Assembly (NCBI RefSeq): GCF_013155125.1
Contig: NZ_CP053564.1
Coordinates: forward strand, 3,417,501 to 3,481,500
Direction of reading: 5' to 3'
From: Pseudonocardia broussonetiae
GTDB taxonomy: Bacteria > Actinomycetota > Actinomycetes > Mycobacteriales > Pseudonocardiaceae
Length of the DNA stretch: 64,000 nt
The position numbers and the translations under genes are program-made. Each line of letters opens with the position of its first letter. Position 1 is the first letter of the stretch. Under the pieces are notes generated by a model. It had not been told where the DNA came from. It made no database searches and saw only the letters and a list, made by a program, of their open reading frames with translations. Positions 2,279 through 53,674 of this stretch are shown here, piece by piece.

Positions 2279-2688
2279 GCGGCTCCCGCCGTGGCGACCA
2301 CCCGCCGGGTGGTGGGCTACACTCAGCAACGGCCCACGACCCGGGCCCGGTCGCCGCACGGCGCGCCCCGGAGAACTCTCCGGTCCGCACCTGCGTCGGG
2401 TGCCGGACGCGGTCGCAGGCCGACGATCTGCTGCGGGTCGTCGCGGAGCACGGGGCCCTGGTCCCGGACCCGCGACGACGGTTCCCCGGCCGAGGTGCCT
2501 GGCTGCACCCCGATCCGGAGTGCCTCCACCGTGCCGAGCGGCGCTCGGCGTTCCCGCGGGCGCTCCGCGTCCCGGGACCGCTGGACACCACCGCGGTCCG
2601 GGCGCATCTAGCCGGCGCCGGAGCAGTCACCGGGGCCCGGGACACACCCGGGTCCGTCATCGAGGAGAGCAAGGTCGACCCGTCATGA
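2275..2688 (+). CDS. ylxR: YlxR/DUF448 family nucleic-acid-binding protein; start unclear
   Basis: The conserved YlxR signature (PVRTCVGCR near the start, then [21 protein letters not shown]) is obvious between nusA and infB, the standard location. The family is small, basic and thought to bind RNA or DNA; it has also been linked to RNase P in some bacteria. The odd point is initiation: this frame has no ATG, GTG or TTG between the nusA end and the conserved domain. The start given is a CTG at 2275 that overlaps the nusA TGA and has GGAG 8 nt upstream. Initiation further downstream at another non-standard codon cannot be excluded. Gene identity is sure; the start is not. Confidence 0.8.
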
Positions 2689-2781
2689 GCCAGTCGTGAA
2701 GATCGCACCATGAACGTGCTTCGACACTAGGTTCGAGGTCGAGCGGGACCAGCCGCCGGCCTCCGAGTAACAGGGAGTGCA

Positions 2782-5700
2782 GTGGCAGGCAAGGCCCGTG
2801 TGCACGAGCTCGCGAAAGAGCTCGGCATCTCCAGCAAGCAGGTCCTGAGCAAGTTGCAGGACCTCGGCGAGTACGTGAAGTCGCCGTCCTCCACCGTCGA
2901 GGCCCCGGTCGCCCGCAAGCTGCGGGAGTCCGTGTCCGGTGGTGGCAACGGCGGCGGTCGCCCCCGTGGCGGCGCGTCGTCCCCCTCCGCCGTTCCCGGC
3001 CCCCCGCGGTCCGGTGGCGTCCCGGGACCCCGTCCCGGCCCGCGTCCGCCCGCGCCCGCGCCGGCGGCCCCCGCCGAGGCGGCGGCCCCCGCGGCCCCGT
3101 CCCGTCCGGCCGCTCCGGCCCAGCCCGAGCGCCCGGCGGCCCAGCAGCGCACCGACGAGTCCGCTCGTCCGAGCGGCCCGCGTCCCGGCCCGCGTCCGGG
3201 CCCGGCCGCCAAGCCGGAGCCGATCCGCGCCGAGGCTCCCGTGGCCGAGCGCGCCCCGGCGCCGCAGGCCGGCCGTCCCGGCCCGCAGGCGCGCCCCGAC
3301 CAGGGCCGTCCCGAGCCGGTGCAGCCCGCCGCGGCCGACGCCGGTTCCGCCGTCGTCCCGCCGCGGACCTCGGGCCCGCGCCCGGGTCCGCGCACGCCGC
3401 GCGTCGGCAACAACCCGTTCGGCGTCGGCTCCGGGGCACCGCCCCGTCCGGCCGCGCCGCGCCCCGGCCCGCCGGCCCAGCCCGGTGGCGCCCCGTCCGG
3501 CCCGCCCGCACAGGGTGACCGGCCGGCCCCCGGCCAGGGCGGTCCCCGCCCCGGCGGTCCCGGTCAGGGCGGTCCCCGTCCGGCCGGCCCCCGTCCCGGT
3601 GGCCCGCGTCCGCCCAACCCGGGCAACATGCCCCCGCGCCCGAACCCCGGCATGATGCCGGCGCGTCCGGCCGGTGGGCGTCCCGCGCCCGGCGGCCGCG
3701 GCGGCCCCGGTGGACCCGGTGGACGTCCCGGTGGTCCGGGTGGACGCCCGGGCGGTCCCGGTGGTCGTCCCGGTGGCGGCGGCGGCGGAGGCTTCCGTCC
3801 CGGTGGCGGCGGTCCCGGTGGTGGCGGTGCCCCCGCCGGTGGCGGTTTCCGTCCCGGTGGCGGCGGCGGCGGTCGCCCCGGTGGCCCGCGCGGTCGCGGC
3901 GGTGCCGCGGGTGCGTTCGGCCGTCCCGGTGGGCCGGTGCGCAAGGGCCGCAAGTCGAAGCGCGCGAAGCGCCAGGAGTTCGAGTCGATGCAGGCCCCTT
4001 CGGCCGGCGGCGTCCGCCTGCCCCGGGGTAACGGCGAGACGATCAAGCTCGCCCGCGGCGCGTCGCTGACCGACTTCGCCGACAAGATCGGCGCCAACCC
4101 GGCGTCGCTCGTGCAGGTGCTGTTCCACCTCGGTGAGATGGTCACCAACACGCAGTCGGTGTCCGACGAGATCCTCGAGCTGCTCGGCAGCGAGATGAAC
4201 TACGTCGTGCAGGTCGTCAGCCCCGAGGAGGAGGACCGCGAGCTGCTCGACAGCTTCTCCATCTCCTACGGCGAGGACGCCGGCGGCGAGGAGGACCTGG
4301 TCGTGCGGCCCCCGGTCGTCACGGTCATGGGTCACGTCGACCACGGAAAGACGCGCCTGCTCGACACGATCCGCAAGGCGAACGTGATGGGCGGGGAGGC
4401 CGGTGGCATCACCCAGCACATCGGCGCCTACCAGGTCGTCACCGAGCTGGAGGGCTACGAGCGCCCGATCACCTTCATCGACACCCCGGGTCACGAGGCG
4501 TTCACCGCCATGCGTGCCCGTGGCGCGAAGTCCACGGACATCGCGGTGATCGTGGTCGCCGCCGACGACGGCGTCATGCCGCAGACGGTGGAGGCGATCA
4601 ACCACGCCCAGGCGGCCGACGTGCCGGTGGTCGTGGCGGTCAACAAGATCGACAAGGAGGGCGCGAACCCGGACAAGATCCGGCAGCAGCTCACCGAGTA
4701 CAACCTCGTGGCCGAGGAGTACGGCGGCGACACGATGTTCGTCGACATCTCCGCCAAGCAGGGCACCAACATCGACCAGCTGCTCGAGGCCATCCTCCTC
4801 ACGGCGGACGCCTCGCTGGACCTCCGGGCCAACCCGGACATGGAGGCCCAGGGCGTCGCGATCGAGGCCCACCTCGACCGCGGCCGCGGTCCGGTGGCCA
4901 CGGTGCTGGTGCAGCGCGGCACGCTGCGCGTCGGCGACTCGATCGTCGCGGGCGACGCCTCCGGGCGCGTCCGGCGGATGTTCGACGAGCACGGCGAGGA
5001 CATCGTCGAGGCCTACCCGTCGCGTCCCGTGGCGGTCGTCGGCTTCACGTCGGTGCCCGGCGCGGGCGACACGTTCCTCGTCGTCGACGAGGACCGCGTG
5101 GCCCGGCAGATCGCCGACCGGCGCCGCGCCCGCGAGCGCAACGCCGAGCTGGCGAGCCGTCGCAAGCGCGTGTCGCTCGAGGACCTCGACGCCGCGCTGA
5201 AGGAGACCAACCAGCTCAACCTGATCATCAAGGGTGACAACTCGGGAACCGTCGAGGCTCTCGAGGACGCGCTCATGAAGATCGAGGTCGGCGACGACGT
5301 CGAGCTGCGCGTGATCCACCGCGGTGTCGGTGGCATCACCGAGGGCGACGTCAACCTCGCCATCGCCGACAACGTCATCGTCCTGGGCTTCAACGTCCGG
5401 GCCGAGGGCAAGGCGACGGAGCTGGCCAACCGCGAGGGCGTGGAGATCCGGTACTACTCGGTGATCTACCAGGCGATCGACGAGATCGAGCAGGCGCTCA
5501 AGGGCCTGCTCAAGCCCGAGTTCGAGGAGGTCGTCCTCGGCCACGCGGAGGTCCGCCAGGTCTTCCGCTCCTCGCGCTTCGGCTCGATCGCCGGCTGCCT
5601 GGTCATGGACGGGATCATCCGTCGCAACGCCAAGGCCCGCCTGCTGCGCGACAGCGTCGTGGTGGCCGAGAACCTGTCGATCAACTCGCTCCGGCGGGTC

Positions 5701-13407: not shown

Positions 13408-14655
13408 TCAGACCACCGGCGGTGCCTGCACGAGCCCGGCGCCCACGTCGTCGGACGGGAGCGGCAGACGGCTCGCACCGCGCACCAGCGCCCCCCAGAG
13501 TGCCTCACCGCGGGCCCCGCTGCGCTGCGCCCAGAGCGCCGCGATGCCGGCGACGTGCGGCGTCGCCATGCTGGTGCCGGAGATGGTGGTGTAGCGCTCG
13601 GGCATCGGCCAGGACGAGTAGACGTCGACGCCGGGCCCGGCGACGTCGACCTGCCCGCCCTCCACGCCCGAGCTGCGCGCCGAGAACGGCGCGATGTCCA
13701 GCGCGTTGTCGACCGCGGCCACCGCCATGATCGACGGGCTGTTGGCCGGGATGCCGACGAAGCCCGGGTCGCCCGACGCGCGGTCCGCGTTGTTGCCCGC
13801 CGCGGCGATGACGAGCACGCCCGCGGCCAGGGCGCGCCGCCCGACCGTCTCGTACACCGTCGAGACCTCGTCGACGTCGGCGCCCAGCGACATCGAGATG
13901 ACGTGCGCGCCGTTCTCGATCGCCCACGCCATGCCGGCCAGGATCTCGGCGTCGGTGCCCGAGCCCGCGTCGCTCAGCACCTTGCCCGCGAGGATCCGGG
14001 CCTCGTGCGCCACGCCGTAGCGGCGCCCGGTGCCGGGCAGCAGCGCGCCGCACGAGGTGCCGGCGCAGTGCGTGCCGTGGCCGTTGCCGTCCTGCGCGGT
14101 CTCGCCCTCGACGAAGGACTCGGCGAGGACGTCGCGGCCGGCGAAGTCGGGGTGCTCGAGGTCGAGGCCGGTGTCGAGGATCGCGACGGTGATGCCCGCG
14201 CCGCTCTCCGCGACCGTGGCCGCGTTGGTGACCTGCAGGCCCCACGTCAGCTCGTCGGTGTCCTCGGCGACGGGCCCGGCGGCCTCCTCGACGGGCGGGT
14301 CCACGGCCTGGCCGTGCAGGAACGCCGCCGCGTCGGCGAACCCGCGCAGGTACTCCTCCGACAGCGCGCCGCGCACGTGGTGCACGCGCTCCGGCTCGGC
14401 CGCGACGATCCGCCGGTCGGCGATCATCGCCGTGACGGCGTCGGTGTCGGTGGCCTCGACCGGCAGGACGGCGATCCCGAGGCGCGGGAACAGCAGCGAC
14501 CCGTCCGCGGTCCCCTCCTCGGCTGCCCCGGTCACCTCGGCGAGCGCGGTGCGGGCGGCGTCGGGGTCGGCGTGGAGGTCGTCGGACAGGACGAGGACCA
14601 GTCGCCCCGTCAGCTGGTCGGGCCAGGTGGTCGGACCGTCGGTGCGCAGCTGCAT
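13408..14655 (-). CDS. Subtilisin-like serine protease (S8), intracellular type
   Basis: 415 residues. An N-terminal region of about 110 residues looks like a propeptide. The S8 catalytic domain has Asp in AILDTGLDLEHPDF (about 160), His in DGNGHGTHCAG (about 194), oxyanion Asn in AAAGNN and Ser in GTSMATPHVAG (about 360). No signal peptide is visible, so it may act in the cytoplasm or leave by another route. ATG 14655 is chosen as the first start after the weak GGAAGGG; upstream codons are antisense to truB. Divergent from truB by 64 bp. Confidence 0.88.
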   Translation of the reverse strand: MQLRTDGPTTWPDQLTGRLVLVLSDDLHADPDAARTALAEVTGAAEEGTADGSLLFPRLGIAVLPVEATDTDAVTAMIADRRIVAAEPERVHHVRGALSEEYLRGFADAAAFLHGQAVDPPVEEAAGPVAEDTDELTWGLQVTNAATVAESGAGITVAILDTGLDLEHPDFAGRDVLAESFVEGETAQDGNGHGTHCAGTSCGALLPGTGRRYGVAHEARILAGKVLSDAGSGTDAEILAGMAWAIENGAHVISMSLGADVDEVSTVYETVGRRALAAGVLVIAAAGNNADRASGDPGFVGIPANSPSIMAVAAVDNALDIAPFSARSSGVEGGQVDVAGPGVDVYSSWPMPERYTTISGTSMATPHVAGIAALWAQRSGARGEALWGALVRGASRLPLPSDDVGAGLVQAPPVV

Positions 14656-15632: not shown

Positions 15633-16985
15633 CCGCCGCCACGGCCCCTCTTTCGACCCTGGCGTCACACTTCCGACGATCACCGGCTCGATCTCGGCAG
15701 GAGTGCGTCCTCACGGTCGCCTGGGGGGCCGTGGTGTCACGGTTCCGACGATCACCGCGCGGCCGGGGCCGCAGGGGCAGGGGCGGGGCGGCGGACCGAT
15801 CGGCCGGCAGGTTGGTGGCGGGGCCGGTGGGTGATCGTCGGGAGTGGTCGGATCCGGCCACGGGTGACCGCCTGGCACCACTCACCGCGATCACCGGCTG
15901 GCTCGCGGCAGGAGTGCGTCCTCGCGGTCTCCCGCGGGACCGTGTGGTCACAGTCCCGACGATCACCGCGCCGGCCGGCCGCCAGGGCGTGGGCGCGGCG
16001 GGCCGGTCGGCCGGTGGTGCGGCCGGTGGGTGATCGCCAGGAGTGGTCGGATCAGGCCACCGGTGACCGCAAGGCCAGATGGCGTCGTGACCATGATCGC
16101 CGGAACCGCACCACCACGGCCCCTCCAAGGACCGTGGTGTCGCACTCGTGGCGATCACCGGGTCGAATTCGCCAGGAGTGCGCCCTCACGGTCGCCCGGG
16201 AGACCGTGGTGTCACAGTCCCGATGATCATTGCGCCGGGGCGGGGCATCGGGGCAGGGGCGCGGGTGGGCACGGGCACGGGCGGGGGCGGGGGCGTGGCT
16301 GGGCAGGGGCGCGGCCGGGCGGCGGGCCGTCGACCGGTGGCGGGGCCACGTAGGTGCCGCCCCCGCCGCGGGACACGGCCACGGACACGGATCCGCCGCC
16401 CCCGGCCGGGTGGGTGATCGCCAGGAGTGGTCGGATCAGGCCACCGGTGACCGCCTCGCACCACTCTCCGCGATCAAGGCCACACGGCGTCGTGACCATG
16501 ATCGTCGGGACCGCACCGCCACGGCCCCGCCGACGACCGTGGCGTCGCACTCCCGGTGATCACCGGCTGGCTCACGCCAGGAGTGCGCCCTCACGGTCGC
16601 CCGGGAGACCGTGAGGTCACAGTTCCGACGATCACCGCCTCGCACCACTCTCCGCGATCAAGGCCAGATGGCGTCGTAACCGTGATCGTCGGGACCGCAC
16701 CGCCACGGCCCCGCCGACGACCGTGGCGTCGCACTCCCGGTGATCACCGGCTGGCTCACGGCAGGAGTGCGCCCTCACGGTCGCCCGGGGGACCGTGGTG
16801 TCACAGTTCAGACGATCACCGCACCGCCCAGGGCGGAGCAGGGGCGCGCCGGAGCAGAGGCGCGCGAAGGCAGGGGCGCGGCGGAGCGGTGTGTCGGCGG
16901 GCCCGTGGGTGCGGGCCGGTGGGGATCGCCAGGAGTGGTCGCAGGGCCCACCCGTGACAGCCCCACACCACTCCCCGCGATCACG
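15633..16985. repeat. Mosaic hairpin-repeat island (A, B and C units joined at GATC)
   Basis: The 1472-bp gap between truB and ribF holds no credible gene. It is built from three unit types. A: 81 bp, at 15678-15758, 15889-15969, 16153-16233, 16558-16638 and 16742-16822. B: about 64 bp, at 15831-15894, 16030-about 16069 (3' half deleted), 16414-16476 and about 16923-16984. C: 64 bp, at 16094-16157, 16499-16562 and 16683-16746, with a partial C/A at the left edge. Neighbouring units share GATCAC or TGATC boundaries. B and C fold on themselves over nearly full length (for example GAGTGGT with ACCACTC; CGCCACGG with CCGTGGCG). A contains CACGGTC with GACCGTG. G-rich spacers of 60-180 bp separate B-C-A blocks. 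By eye there are about 25 GATC sites, many more than base composition predicts. Confidence 0.9.
16453..16822. repeat. 184-bp tandem duplication inside the repeat island
   Basis: The block starting GCCTCGCACCACTC at 16453 recurs at 16637, a period of 184 bp, with only scattered differences (for example CACACGG versus CAGATGG). Each copy has the 3' half of a B unit, then one C, then one A. The near identity implies recent unequal exchange or slippage. Confidence 0.85.
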
Positions 16986-34869: not shown

Positions 34870-36654
34870 TTGAGCCGTCCCCCTGCACGGTCCGACCGCA
34901 ACAGGTCCGACCGTCGGTCCCGCCCGCCCCGGCGCGACCAGAACCGACCCCCGGCCGTCGTCGAAGCCACCCAGCCCGGCCTGCCCACGCAACCCCCGGG
35001 CCCGCTGCCCGAGGGCGCGCTGCGCGTGCTCACCCTGGGCGGCATCGGCGAGATCGGCCGCAACATGACCGTCTTCGAGTACGACGGCCGCCTGCTCGTC
35101 GTCGACTCCGGGGTGCTGTTCCCCGACGCCGACGCCCCCGGCGTCGACCTGATCCTGCCCGACTTCCGCCCCATCCTCGACCGCCTCGGCGACATCGACG
35201 CGCTCGTGCTCACCCACGGCCACGAGGACCACATCGGCGCGGTGCCGTTCCTGCTGCGCCAGCGCCCCGACCTGCTGATCGTCGGGTCGCCGTTCACGCT
35301 CGCGCTGGTGGCGGCCAAGTGCAAGGAGCACCGCCTCACCCCGCACATGCTGGTCGTCAACGAGGGCGACCGCCTGCGCCACGGCACGTTCGAGTGCGAG
35401 TACTTCGCCGTCGCGCACTCGATCCCGCAGTGCCTCGCGGTCGCGATCCGCACGCCGGCCGGCGTCGTCCTGCACACCGGCGACATCAAGCTCGACCAGC
35501 TCCCGCTCGACGGGCGCCTCACCGACCTGCCCGGCTTCTCGCGCCTGGGCGACGAGGGCGTCGACCTGTTCCTGTGCGACTCCACCAACGCCGACGTGCC
35601 CGGGGTGTCGCCCTCGGAGGCCTCGCTCGGCCCGGCCATCGCGCAGGCGATCGGCCAGGCGTCGGGGCGTGCGTTCGTGGCGTGCTTCGCCTCCAACGTG
35701 CACCGCGTGCAGCAGATCATCGACGGCGCGGTGCTCCACGGCCGTCGCGTGTGCCTGATCGGGCGCTCGATGCTGCGCAACATGGAGATCGCCACCGACC
35801 TCGAGCTGCTGTCGGTGCCCGAGGGCGTCATGGTCGCGCTCGACGACGTCGAGGAGGTGCCCGAGGACAAGCTGCTCGTCGTGTGCACCGGGTCGCAGGG
35901 CGAGCCGATGGCGGCGCTGTCGCGGATCGCGCGCGGCGAGCACCGCACGTTCCAGATGCGCTCGACCGACACCGTCATCCTGTCCAGCTCGCTCATCCCG
36001 GGCAACGAGCACGCCGTGTTCGGCGTGGTCAACCGGCTGCGCCGCGCGGGCATCCAGGTGATCGACAACCGCAACGCCAACGTGCACGTCTCCGGGCACG
36101 CGTTCGCGGGGGAGCTGCTGTTCCTCTACAACGCGGTGCGCCCGAGCAACGTCATGCCGGTGCACGGCGAGTGGCGCCACCTGCGCGCCAACGCCGCGCT
36201 GGCCGAGAAGACCGGTGTCGCGCACGACGCCGTCGTCGTCACCGAGAACGGGATCACCGTCGACCTCGTCGACGGCCGCGCCGTGATCTCCGGGCGCGTC
36301 GAGGTGGGCCGGGCCTACGTCGACGGCGTCGCCACCGGCGACATCGAGCAGCCCACGCTGGCCGACCGCATCGTGCTGGGCGAGGGCGGCTTCATCTCCA
36401 TCACCGTGGCCATCGACGCCACCACCGGCCGGGCCGTCGCCCCGCCGACGCTGTCCGGGCGCGGGTTCTCCGAGGACCCGAAGGCGCTGGAGGCCGTGCT
36501 GCCGATCGTCGAGCAGGAGCTGGCCCGCACCGGCAGCGACGGGATCGTCGACACCCACCGCGTGGCCCAGCAGGTGCGCCGGGTCGTCGGGAAGTGGGTG
36601 GGGGAGACCTACCGCCGCCGCCCGATGATCGTGCCCACGGTCATCGCCGTCTGA
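34870..36654 (+). CDS. rnj: Ribonuclease J
   Basis: 594 residues. A basic/Pro-rich N-terminus of about 50 residues is followed by a metallo-beta-lactamase/beta-CASP core with LTHGHEDHIGAVPFLL (HxHxDH), HTGDIKLDQ and CDSTNAD, and the C-terminal PVHGEWRHLRANAALA and SGHAFAGELL. It is an endo/5'-exonuclease in RNA turnover. TTG start with GAGGAG 5 nt upstream. The dapA-rnj-(ftsK) order is common in actinobacteria; here a toxin-antitoxin/lat/SBP56 block intervenes before ftsK. Confidence 0.95.
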   Translation: MSRPPARSDRNRSDRRSRPPRRDQNRPPAVVEATQPGLPTQPPGPLPEGALRVLTLGGIGEIGRNMTVFEYDGRLLVVDSGVLFPDADAPGVDLILPDFRPILDRLGDIDALVLTHGHEDHIGAVPFLLRQRPDLLIVGSPFTLALVAAKCKEHRLTPHMLVVNEGDRLRHGTFECEYFAVAHSIPQCLAVAIRTPAGVVLHTGDIKLDQLPLDGRLTDLPGFSRLGDEGVDLFLCDSTNADVPGVSPSEASLGPAIAQAIGQASGRAFVACFASNVHRVQQIIDGAVLHGRRVCLIGRSMLRNMEIATDLELLSVPEGVMVALDDVEEVPEDKLLVVCTGSQGEPMAALSRIARGEHRTFQMRSTDTVILSSSLIPGNEHAVFGVVNRLRRAGIQVIDNRNANVHVSGHAFAGELLFLYNAVRPSNVMPVHGEWRHLRANAALAEKTGVAHDAVVVTENGITVDLVDGRAVISGRVEVGRAYVDGVATGDIEQPTLADRIVLGEGGFISITVAIDATTGRAVAPPTLSGRGFSEDPKALEAVLPIVEQELARTGSDGIVDTHRVAQQVRRVVGKWVGETYRRRPMIVPTVIAV

Positions 36655-36657
36655 CCC

Positions 36658-36699
36658 CGTGAGTGGATACGGGTGCTCCGGCACCCGTATCCACTCACG
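36658..36699. repeat. 42-nt palindrome, copy 2
   Basis: CGTGAGTGGATACGGGTGC / GCACCCGTATCCACTCACG with a TCCG loop. It begins 3 nt after the rnj stop, and its right arm contains the hepT stop on the other strand, so both convergent genes end in it. Outer pairing extends to 36656-36701. It differs from copy 1 at two stem positions, each compensated on the other arm. Confidence 0.9.
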
Positions 36700-37057
36700 G
36701 GTCAGGCTGTTCCGCGTCCGCAGTGAGTACGGCGAGCACCTCGACCAGCCCGACGACGAAGCCGTCGAGCTGATCGGTGGCGGTGGTGTGCAGGAGCGCG
36801 ACGTCGACCGACCAGTACCCGTGCACGACGCGGTTGCGCAGACGCACCGGGTTGCGCCACGGCAGCGCGGGGAAGCGGGCCTTCGTCTCGTCGGAGACCA
36901 GGGTGGCGGCCTCGCCGAGGACGGTGGAGTTCCCGAGCAGCGCGTCGCGCCGCAGCCGGTCATCAGCGACCTCCGTGACAGTGCGGCCCGCGACGATGCT
37001 GCGCGCCTGCTCGGCGGCGTCGATCATCTCGCGCAGCAGGAGCAGATCACGCTGCAC
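36695..37057 (-). CDS. hepT: HepT-like HEPN toxin (DUF86)
   Basis: 120 residues, all-helical HEPN RNase. The Rx4HxY motif RNRVVHGY (about 82-89) gives the catalytic Arg/His and the Tyr that MntA AMPylates in characterised systems. GTG start at 37057 overlaps the mntA 3' end by 11 bp, typical of this TA type. The last codon and stop lie in palindrome copy 2. Confidence 0.85.
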   Translation of the reverse strand: MQRDLLLLREMIDAAEQARSIVAGRTVTEVADDRLRRDALLGNSTVLGEAATLVSDETKARFPALPWRNPVRLRNRVVHGYWSVDVALLHTTATDQLDGFVVGLVEVLAVLTADAEQPDP

Positions 37058-37349
37058 AGATCGGCCTGGCGTCGTGCAGGACCGTGCTGCGGAGCATCGG
37101 GTGGAGCGCGGATCGGGCCACCAGATCGACCGGCCGGCCGAAGAGCGCGGCCAGCGCGTCGGTGAGGTCCTCGATCTCCCAGCCGAGACGGGCACCGGGA
37201 ACGAGTTCGTAGAGCAGGTCGAGGTCGCTGTCGGGCCCCGACTCGCCGCGGGCGGCGGAGCCGAACACCTCGAGGGCCGCGATCCCGTAGCGCCGGCAGA
37301 CCGCGTCGAGGCGGTCGGCGTCCACCTCGGCCCACACCTCGTCCTGCAT
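37047..37349 (-). CDS. mntA: MntA-like minimal nucleotidyltransferase antitoxin
   Basis: 100 residues. The nucleotidyltransferase motif GSAARGESGPDSDLDLL (GSx9-10DxD, about 37-53) is complete. MntA proteins neutralise HepT by transferring AMP to its Tyr. ATG at 37349; a longer frame runs upstream into palindrome copy 3 and is not used. It lies upstream of and overlaps hepT. The pair is enclosed by palindrome copies 2 and 3. Confidence 0.87.
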   Translation of the reverse strand: MQDEVWAEVDADRLDAVCRRYGIAALEVFGSAARGESGPDSDLDLLYELVPGARLGWEIEDLTDALAALFGRPVDLVARSALHPMLRSTVLHDARPICAA

Positions 37350-37411: not shown

Positions 37412-37453
37412 CGTGAGTGGATACCGGTGCTCCAGCACCGGTATCCACTCACG
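37412..37453. repeat. 42-nt palindrome, copy 3
   Basis: CGTGAGTGGATACCGGTGC / GCACCGGTATCCACTCACG with loop TCCA. It starts 3 nt past the lat stop (minus strand). Compared with copy 1 it has one compensated pair change (C-G to T-A), and the loop has lost the UNCG form. Confidence 0.9.
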
Positions 37454-52380: not shown

Positions 52381-53674
52381 CGTCCCGCGCTCGACGACGC
52401 CGCCCTCCCTGACGGGAGGGCGGCGTCCTGCGTTCCGGCCCCCTGTGTCCCGCGCCCTCTCTGTTGCAGGAAGGCCACCTTGTGGACGGTTCACGGCATG
52501 AAGGTGGCCTTCCTGCAACGGGGTGGGGGCTGGGGGCTGGGCGACGGGATCCGCGCGAGTTCGCCGCGCCGCGCGAGTTCGCCGCCGCTGCCCGGGGAGT
52601 TCGCCGCTGTCGCCCGGCGAGTTCGCCGCTGAGCCGCGCGAGTTCGTCGCTGGTGTCCGGCGAGTTCGCCGCCGGCGTCCGGGGAGTCGCCGCGGCCCCG
52701 GCGGTCGGTGATCGCCACTTCGGCGCGTTCGGGGACGCATGTGGCCGGGAACGTGCCGAGCCGGTGATCTCCGGTCCTGCGGGCGGAGGTCGTACGCGAT
52801 CGGCCAACACCCCGTGCCCGATCCGCAAACTCGGCGGGAGGGTCAGCGGCGGCGGGGGGCGCGGCGGGGGGTGGGGGGCCGGGGCGGGGCCGGGCTGGCA
52901 CACCGGGCACCAGTAGGACAGGCGGGCGTAGACGCTCTCGCCCTGCTCGGCCACGCGGATCCGGGTGCCGCACCGGCGGCAGCGCTGGCCGCCGCGCTCG
53001 AAGACCCAGTGCTGGTTGCGGCCGAGGTCGCCGGTGGTGGACTGCTCGGGGCGGTCGGCGTTGCGCAGCAGCAGCTCGCGGGACAGGGCGATGACGGCCG
53101 CGGGGTCGGGGACGTCGCGGGTGAGCGTCCACGGCGAGATCCCGCGCAGGAAGCAGACCTCGGTCTTGTAGAGGTTGCCGACGCCCGCCATCACCCGCTG
53201 CTCCAGCAGCACCGGCCCGATCTCGGAGTCGCCGCGCGCGGTGAGGCGGCGCAGGGCCTCGGCGGCGTGGGCGTCGGACCAGTCGGGGTCGAGCAGGTCG
53301 GGGCCGAGGTGCCCGACCAGCCGCGACTCGTCGGCGGTGGGCAGCAGCTCCATGTCGTGCAGCGCGAACCCGACGGCGACGCGCTCCGCGGTCGCCAGGA
53401 CCGCCCGCGCCTCGTACGCCGGACGCTGCCACGACATGCCGGGCCGGTAGAGGTGCCACGAGCCGTCCATGCGGAAGTGGCTGTGCAGGCTGCGGCCGTC
53501 GTCGAAGCGGGTGAACAGGTGCTTGCCCACCGACGCGACGCCCGTGACGGTCCGGCCGGTGAGGTCGTGCTCGGCGAGGCGGGGGTGGCGCAGCTCCCCG
53601 CGCACGAGCGTCTCGCCGGTGAGCGCGGCCCGCAGGCGCTTCCCGGCCAGGTAGACGGTGTCACCCTCAGGCAC
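52313..53674 (-). CDS. Nei/Fpg-family DNA glycosylase with runaway C-terminal frame
   Basis: The first about 258 residues (53674 down to about 52900) are a complete Nei2-type glycosylase: catalytic PEGD at the N-terminus, H2TH block [27 protein letters not shown] and zinc finger [14 protein letters not shown]...YWCPVC. It excises oxidised bases and cleaves the strand. Instead of stopping, the frame runs another 195 codons through a Pro-rich stretch, the 22-bp array and the inverted repeat, into antisense pspA. That tail is probably accidental; the family ends near the zinc finger. A 22-bp minisatellite lies in the promoter region. Confidence 0.85.
52396..52427 (+). terminator. pspA terminator hairpin
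   Basis: Perfect 14-bp stem GACGCCGCCCTCCC / GGGAGGGCGGCGTC with a TGAC loop, 15 nt past the stop. Confidence 0.8.
52463..52519. repeat. 19-bp perfect inverted repeat
   Basis: GTTGCAGGAAGGCCACCTT / AAGGTGGCCTTCCTGCAAC with a 19-nt loop, just behind the pspA terminator and facing the converging nei-type gene. It is markedly less GC-rich than its surroundings and may serve as terminator for the minus strand. Confidence 0.8.
52557..52671. repeat. Six-copy GAGTTCGCCG array, about 22-bp period
   Basis: GAGTTCGCCG (one copy GAGTTCGTCG) starts at 52557, 52575, 52597, 52619, 52640 and 52662. Spacings are 18, 22, 22, 21 and 22 bp, and a decayed copy lies near 52684. The period is not a multiple of three, so it is a DNA-level array even though the extended nei-type frame runs through it. 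Confidence 0.8.

Follow-up and report, generated by a model that had tools for sequence, protein, structure and literature searches.

The spacer between truB and ribF in the present Pseudonocardia genome is filled with repeated near-palindromes joined at TGATC/GATCA (positions 15640-16983 of the window, that is, of the whole 64-kb stretch of DNA analysed). We give roughly even odds (about 0.5) to the reading that this island consists of locally amplified, non-autonomous copies of a REP-like palindromic element, which also has a form carrying an AbiEi-DUF559 gene. What we observe directly is a dispersed repeat family of fixed length that relatives lack in this gap, together with AbiEi-DUF559 genes that have flanking palindromes of one family. 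The initial annotation had offered three explanations: a palindromic mobile element family, a structured RNA array and a protein-binding array. The first of these is the best supported, by the dispersal, by the gap in relatives and by the flanked gene-carrying versions; a protein-binding array is possible and compatible with the mobile-element reading.

Units and layout of the truB-ribF island

Cutting the sequence at GATC and scanning it with a position-weight model both confirm the near-palindromic repeats meeting at GATC that had been reported in this gap. There are 26 GATC sites in 15633-16985, against 403 across the whole window. The position-weight scan resolves eight units of one 64-bp family, scoring 31.2 to 96.4 bits (two 10-kb control stretches reach -31.0 at best), of which three are intact and five are worn at the left end (Table 1; strand calls for the worn copies are unreliable). 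Three of the five worn units come 8 bp after an intact one, giving a 72-bp pitch. A second family, B, is a separate palindrome of 61-62 bp. The three unit types originally proposed therefore reduce to two: B stands apart, whereas A and C belong to the same 64-bp family, arranged in tandem at the 72-bp pitch with an 8-bp spacer. Likewise, the five equal A units are recovered by the scan, but at 64 bp rather than 81 bp, the longer figure probably having also counted the adjoining unit's GATCA together with the spacer and the next four bases.

The array begins with a truncated unit and its blocks are set apart by G-rich spacers. At 16571-16660 a B fragment is fused to an A unit, indicating deletions and duplications between short homologies. 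Two other descriptions of the island were considered. A composite C+A hairpin was rejected as the true unit, since C and A recur separately and both fit one 64-bp model. The island is probably not a coding repeat either: neither the unit length of 64 nor pitches like 184 can be divided by three, and the gene caller found no gene in the gap.

Table 1. Features of the truB-ribF island and related features in the window
Feature	Position	Strand	Basis or remark
truB	14720-15616		gene caller
truncated 64-bp-family unit, right part only	15640..15682	-	by eye; overlaps detected repeat family D1
64-bp unit A1, worn left end	15691..15754	+	PWM 55.3 bits
B-family palindrome, 62 bp	15832..15893	.	repeat, GATC-spacing and PWM scans
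64-bp unit A2, worn left end	15902..15965	+	PWM 31.2 bits
truncated B unit, without right part	16031..16070	.	
intact 64-bp unit C1, TGATC...GATCA	16094..16157	-	85.2 bits
64-bp unit A3, worn left end, 8-bp spacer from C1	16166..16229	+	PWM 56.3 bits
B-family palindrome, 62 bp	16415..16476	.	
intact 64-bp unit C2	16499..16562	-	96.4 bits
64-bp unit A4, worn left end	16571..16634	-	PWM 42.9 bits
B-unit 3' fragment joined to A4	16635..16660	.	query 38-68 at 100%
intact 64-bp unit C3, same sequence as C2	16683..16746	-	96.4 bits
64-bp unit A5, worn left end	16755..16818	+	PWM 39.8 bits
last B-family unit, 61 bp, GGATC left end	16923..16983	.	
ribF	17089-18012		gene caller
HepT-like and nucleotidyltransferase genes	36695-37349	-	toxin-antitoxin-like cassette

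Dispersal, orientation and pairing of the repeats

The repeats exceed chance by two measures. First, among 1,807 distances between consecutive GATCs in 33 sources (loci L069-L100 and the window), a gap of 58 bp occurs 158 times, against only 4 to 23 times for each of the neighbouring distances 55-57 and 59-61. Second, the pattern TGATC-N54-GATCA, which demands no pairing, occurs 247 times in the present genome (G000), compared with 7 times for a 67-bp control (N57) that keeps the codon phase. The C+A stretch used as a query gave 150 matches in about 34 hand-counted clusters, and a covariance model gave at least 150 matches, each with E below 1e-16. A genome-wide search for the units had been proposed at the outset, and the 247 exact patterns place them well outside the island. 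Sampled arrays lie between called genes. In one locus (L076), two large arrays of opposite orientation (2644-3532 and 13659-14397) are separated by about 10 kb, with genes that look ordinary by translation between them.

RibF assigns the genome to Pseudonocardia, and P. hydrocarbonoxydans is the closest named species record, at 92%. Units of this kind extend through the genus at very uneven copy number. The covariance model finds a match at E 0.001 in 31 of 36 genus-sample genomes, and the exact 64-bp pattern reaches at least 30 copies in 21 of 62 same-genus genomes (control N57 at most 13 in every one), ranging from 1 to 247 copies from species to species. Most of 58 genomes outside Pseudonocardia are without a 64-bp excess, the clearest exceptions, pattern against control, being G057 (34 vs 2), G087 (19 vs 4) and G044 (16 vs 3). 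The palindrome arms vary among species and inside one genome; G061, by eye, holds several unrelated palindrome families of equal length.

The array might instead serve to organise or replicate the chromosome, as a set of oriented signals or nucleoid-protein sites, and the orientation of the units bears on this. In 27 of 33 sources all units share one direction (two of the 27 hold a single unit), and neighbouring arrays agree in 27 of 45 cases against a shuffled mean of 22.0 (p 0.09). However, a link between orientation and replichores was rejected (Fisher p 0.14), the replichores being inferred from coding-strand bias only (origin near 2.1 Mb, terminus near 5.8 Mb; a DnaA_N search gave no match). 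With the interspecies range in copy number also against it, we regard this explanation as very unlikely.

The truB-ribF gap could be measured at 26 of 29 ribF loci in relatives, the other three giving no measurable gap. It spans 10-237 bp in 24 of the 26, 313 bp in G019 and 950 bp in G004, and an array like that of the island is absent from all 26. GATC pairs at unit distance are likewise missing from these gaps, save for two pairs in G004. The island thus belongs to the present lineage, and this comparison, also suggested by the initial annotation, fits a mobile family. By eye, the 950-bp gap of G004 (L144) resembles a reading frame, not an array. Also by eye, the gaps of G006, G007, G018 and G030 (L138, L139, L142 and L145) carry palindromic or tandem insertions that differ by species, as if the truB-ribF spacer were a favoured landing place; the palindrome in the G007 gap belongs by eye to the family GTTGCAGCAAGGCCACCTT, the same family as the palindrome at L182 in the present genome. 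A TAGGCT box lies just 5' of ribF in most gaps inspected.

The stems had been described as carrying paired differences. In 90 oriented units of the 64-bp family, however, stem pairing is no better than in column shuffles (83.2% vs 83.8%), and the within-family covariation score was matched by 498 of 500 shuffles. Across families the picture differs: among 15 representatives with less than 62% identity (at least two of which look like chance matches, and some of which come from loci found with a paired model, favouring pairing), inner pairs are Watson-Crick in 54.5% of cases against 34.7% for shuffled columns (maximum of 1,000, 41.2%). Swapping of arms made no change within G018 (11.4 vs 11.3) and gave 15.0 vs 10.0 in G061, where families are mixed. 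By these comparisons the palindrome is kept across families, and pairing within one family is not actively maintained.

The lack of within-family covariation leaves a structured RNA unsupported, and we consider it highly improbable that the units act as structured RNAs or as hairpins for RNA processing. The features that might point to RNA are the G.T-rich stems (913 G.T and 142 A.C among 4,212 consensus-oriented stem cells), which only hint that one strand is the folded one because orientation was set from the same consensus, and the folding of C+A, which beats all 200 shuffles (z -4.08). Folding of B, on the other hand, is weak (z -1.55), an Rfam scan returned two weak matches, both far below their gathering scores, and a hand count gave no link between array orientation and the strand of flanking genes. 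A strand link to transcription was rejected on the 14 codirectional spacers, that of the window included, which divide into 5 same, 8 opposite and 1 mixed.

AbiEi-DUF559 genes and their flanking palindromes

One gene of the present genome (L070, G000:C1:129771-130655) has three units of the 64-bp family 36-219 bp upstream; downstream, one unit covers the stop codon, which lies in the unit's TTGATC, and another follows 180 bp on. The units match the intact units of the window at 39 to 51 of 64 positions, and those on the two sides were assigned opposite orientations, on the left by just a small difference in score. Among 2,444 called proteins an iterated profile gathered nine related genes including L070, and in five of the nine (L070, L384, L102, L109 and L353, loci that were fetched because of such units) 62-64-bp GATC-ended units stand on both sides. 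For example, the palindromes lie 69 and 8 bp from the gene at L384 (G061), and at L102 (G006) other TGATC palindromes of 62-64 bp flank it; the gene at L109 (G004) is flanked likewise, but its reading frame is broken. At L180 three units lie on one side only, and the genes at L182 and L363, both in G000, are enclosed by palindromes of other families. Another DUF559 gene of the present genome, L072, has no adjoining palindrome, and an additional 520 kb of G000 held no further such gene. L353 comes from G057, a member of another family of the order, with units on both sides of its AbiEi-DUF559-like gene; both transfer and a second origin are possible for these palindromes and gene.

Protein searches of a plasmid collection, whose records here appear to be chromosome pieces, extended the observation to Tsukamurella tyrosinosolvens, in which all four genes found have same-family repeats on both sides. 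The repeats are 64 bp and abut the gene at L395, 60 bp at L396 (between purC and purB) and 42 bp at L394; at L398 they comprise a 72-bp inverted repeat and two small hairpins, not a simple palindrome. In Arthrobacter (L400), palindromes of 50 and 69 bp from one family lie on opposite sides of the gene. L399 has a palindrome on one side and L397 and L401 have none, gene ends in these three being estimates. Taking together the 11 genes that were not chosen by their flanks (L180, L182, L363 and L394-L401), same-family repeats stand on both sides of seven, from Pseudonocardia, Tsukamurella and Arthrobacter, three of the seven being atypical (L182 and L363 are only remotely DUF559-like, and the L398 repeats are unusual). 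Four further loci, two with AbiE pairs and two with lone DUF559 domains (L402-L405), show no comparable flank similarity.

Comparison with other genes gives a measure of this association. In the 1,247 genes compared from G000 and G061, a flank-similarity score of at least 17 was reached by two of three AbiEi-DUF559 genes and by 6 of 1,244 others. A stricter test for hairpins on both sides gave a poorer separation: the lowest threshold was passed by two of three such genes and 11 of 1,260 others, and the next threshold by one of three and 4 of 1,260, the top gene not being DUF559. TGATC ends track no single clade of a small protein tree, in which the L109 row is misread.

The L070 protein matches DUF559 in Pfam at 34.2 bits (cut-off 20.6) and, below cut-off, MTES_1575, which is named there as a family of restriction endonucleases. 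DUF559 is above cut-off in seven of nine further such proteins, a scan that left out L102, L109, L353 and L400; it has no Pfam match in the L182 and L363 proteins, nor in the sets of 27 homologues aligned for each. In profile comparison both families nevertheless align with the L070 family, L363 over 266 and L182 over 282 columns (hhalign 97% and 89%), and the L363 family has R at the position of motif E. AbiEi models from PADLOC match all five proteins scanned, and there is a distant match to the solved endonuclease-like protein 3hrl (E 8.1e-5). For one query, 1,565 of 8,000 scored candidates were homologues at E 1e-10; among the best 120 of these, the ones that bear a name are called DUF559, endonuclease domain, very-short-patch-repair endonuclease or hypothetical protein. 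Nine distant DUF559 matches were seen in viral contigs.

AbiEi is described in PMC7319586 as binding inverted repeats of 23 bp with 3 bp between them, and the related Rv2827c as binding pairs with a 13-bp gap. By our own sum these sites span 49 and 59 bp, which falls inside the 42-72 bp range of the repeats here and by analogy makes it plausible that the enclosed protein binds its palindrome. The same likeness in span, and the location of AbiEi sites in the proteins' own promoters, would also suit palindromes that serve as operators for AbiEi-type proteins, autoregulatory near the gene and a regulon or decoys elsewhere. We consider this unlikely: the L070 copies flank both sides of the gene, one of them over the stop codon, of the spacers that hold arrays 13 are convergent, 14 codirectional and 7 divergent (counted by hand, with the window), and the copies number in the hundreds.

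We postulate that the AbiEi-DUF559 protein binds, cuts and so moves the palindrome copies. The element would be an imperfect 64-bp palindrome whose TGATC/GATCA ends are fixed and whose arms differ from family to family, and in its gene-carrying form palindromes of one family would flank a gene whose product combines an N-terminal AbiEi-like part with a C-terminal DUF559/Vsr-like nuclease domain. The AbiEi part would bind the cognate palindrome and the nuclease part would nick or cut it, perhaps as a hairpin or cruciform. Repair or replication could then put new copies into intergenic spacers, where tandem blocks would expand through ordinary recombination. More tentatively, and with somewhat less confidence than in the mobile element itself, AbiEi-DUF559 proteins may be nucleases that recognise particular structures or palindromes and so scatter, as solo copies, the palindromes flanking their own genes. 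These would be a mobile palindrome class of Actinomycetota with a RAYT-like life style achieved through a restriction-enzyme-like domain, without an HUH transposase. If this is true, it would supply a cause for intergenic palindrome families in genomes without RAYT and a role for the many proteins that carry the annotation very-short-patch-repair endonuclease, and the spread of palindromic repeats would become testable in a second, unrelated protein family. In the literature searched, with subscription papers largely outside its coverage, we found no account of such an Actinomycetota palindrome class, nothing linking DUF559 to palindromic or inverted repeats, and nothing on Pseudonocardia intergenic palindromes. 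Nor did it yield work on REP-associated tyrosine transposases and palindromes in actinobacteria, or on REP sequences and endonucleases in that group.

The proposed element has points in common with several known systems. MITEs of classical insertion sequences are short and non-autonomous, with inverted repeats and TG...CA ends, all features shared by the units here. In contrast to MITEs, the present units are palindromic over nearly their full length and combine a fixed length with unrelated arms. Spacers and flank profiles gave no signal of a target duplication, and the 8-bp spacers vary between arrays. A search for a parent insertion sequence, limited to PF01797, found none.

REP/BIME elements with RAYT, including REPtrons, are palindromes with an associated transposase gene (PMC2817692, PMC8266576). 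The resemblance extends to high-copy extragenic palindromes with species-specific arms and a conserved short tag, to composite arrays, and to one gene flanked by two copies. Units here, however, are 62-64 bp with TGATC at both ends, whereas REP are 20-40 bp and carry GTAG/CGTC (for repeats so tagged see also PMC3733652), and the gene here is AbiEi-DUF559 in place of a Y1 HUH transposase. The REP-associated transposase sought at the suggestion of the initial annotation was not found: PF01797 (Y1/RAYT) has no match in the present genome, which is 98% complete, and matches in 5 of 36 genus genomes. RAYT was accordingly rejected as the mover, and despite the shared palindromic, extragenic, high-copy and species-specific character, ordinary REP/BIME elements moved by RAYT are an extremely improbable account of the island, one that would require this genome to have lost its RAYT.

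Turning to the protein, the C-terminal DUF559/MTES_1575 family is shared with Vsr-like nucleases, DUF559 being linked to Vsr in PMC12907096; here it comes together with an AbiEi-like part, and palindromes stand at either end. The AbiEi-like part and the binding of inverted repeats by AbiEi are shared with AbiE type IV toxin-antitoxin systems (PMC7319586; see also PMC3985639), whereas here no AbiEii partner is annotated beside the four Tsukamurella genes.

Solo copies and other palindrome-bounded genes

Palindromes of the gene-enclosing families also occur alone. In 1.44 Mb of G000 loci, solo copies of the L182 family are found at 9 places and of the L363 family at 13, three of them in the window. 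The L395 family occupies 20 places in 8 Tsukamurella records, both strands apparently being counted, and the L396 family 11 places in 9 records.

Palindrome pairs can enclose other genes as well. In the window, L363-family palindromes CCCGTGAGTGGATAC... at 36656-36701 and 37412-37453 enclose genes identified by Pfam as HepT-like and nucleotidyltransferase (Table 1), and this cassette directly follows the stop codon of a gene ending at 36654. The DUF559 gene may thus be cargo. Some other enzyme, or recombination, would then spread the palindromes, and AbiEi-DUF559 genes would be passengers or defence genes in palindrome-bounded cassettes, as the R in place of motif E in the L363 family and the palindrome-free L072 gene could also suggest. 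Against this, two of the three gene-enclosing same-family palindrome pairs detected in 81 loci (by a detector that missed the L384 pair) surround AbiEi-DUF559-like genes, which are rare there (four among roughly 1,250 called genes), and flanking palindromes recur in three genera. We hold the passenger explanation to be possible though doubtful, and retain the AbiEi-DUF559 protein as the candidate mover.

The window contains two further palindromes of other kinds. One is a solo GTTGCAG...GGCCACCTT palindrome of the L182 family at 52464-52519. The other, 190 bp past it at 52708-52770, measures 62 bp, runs TGATC...GATCT and represents a further family.
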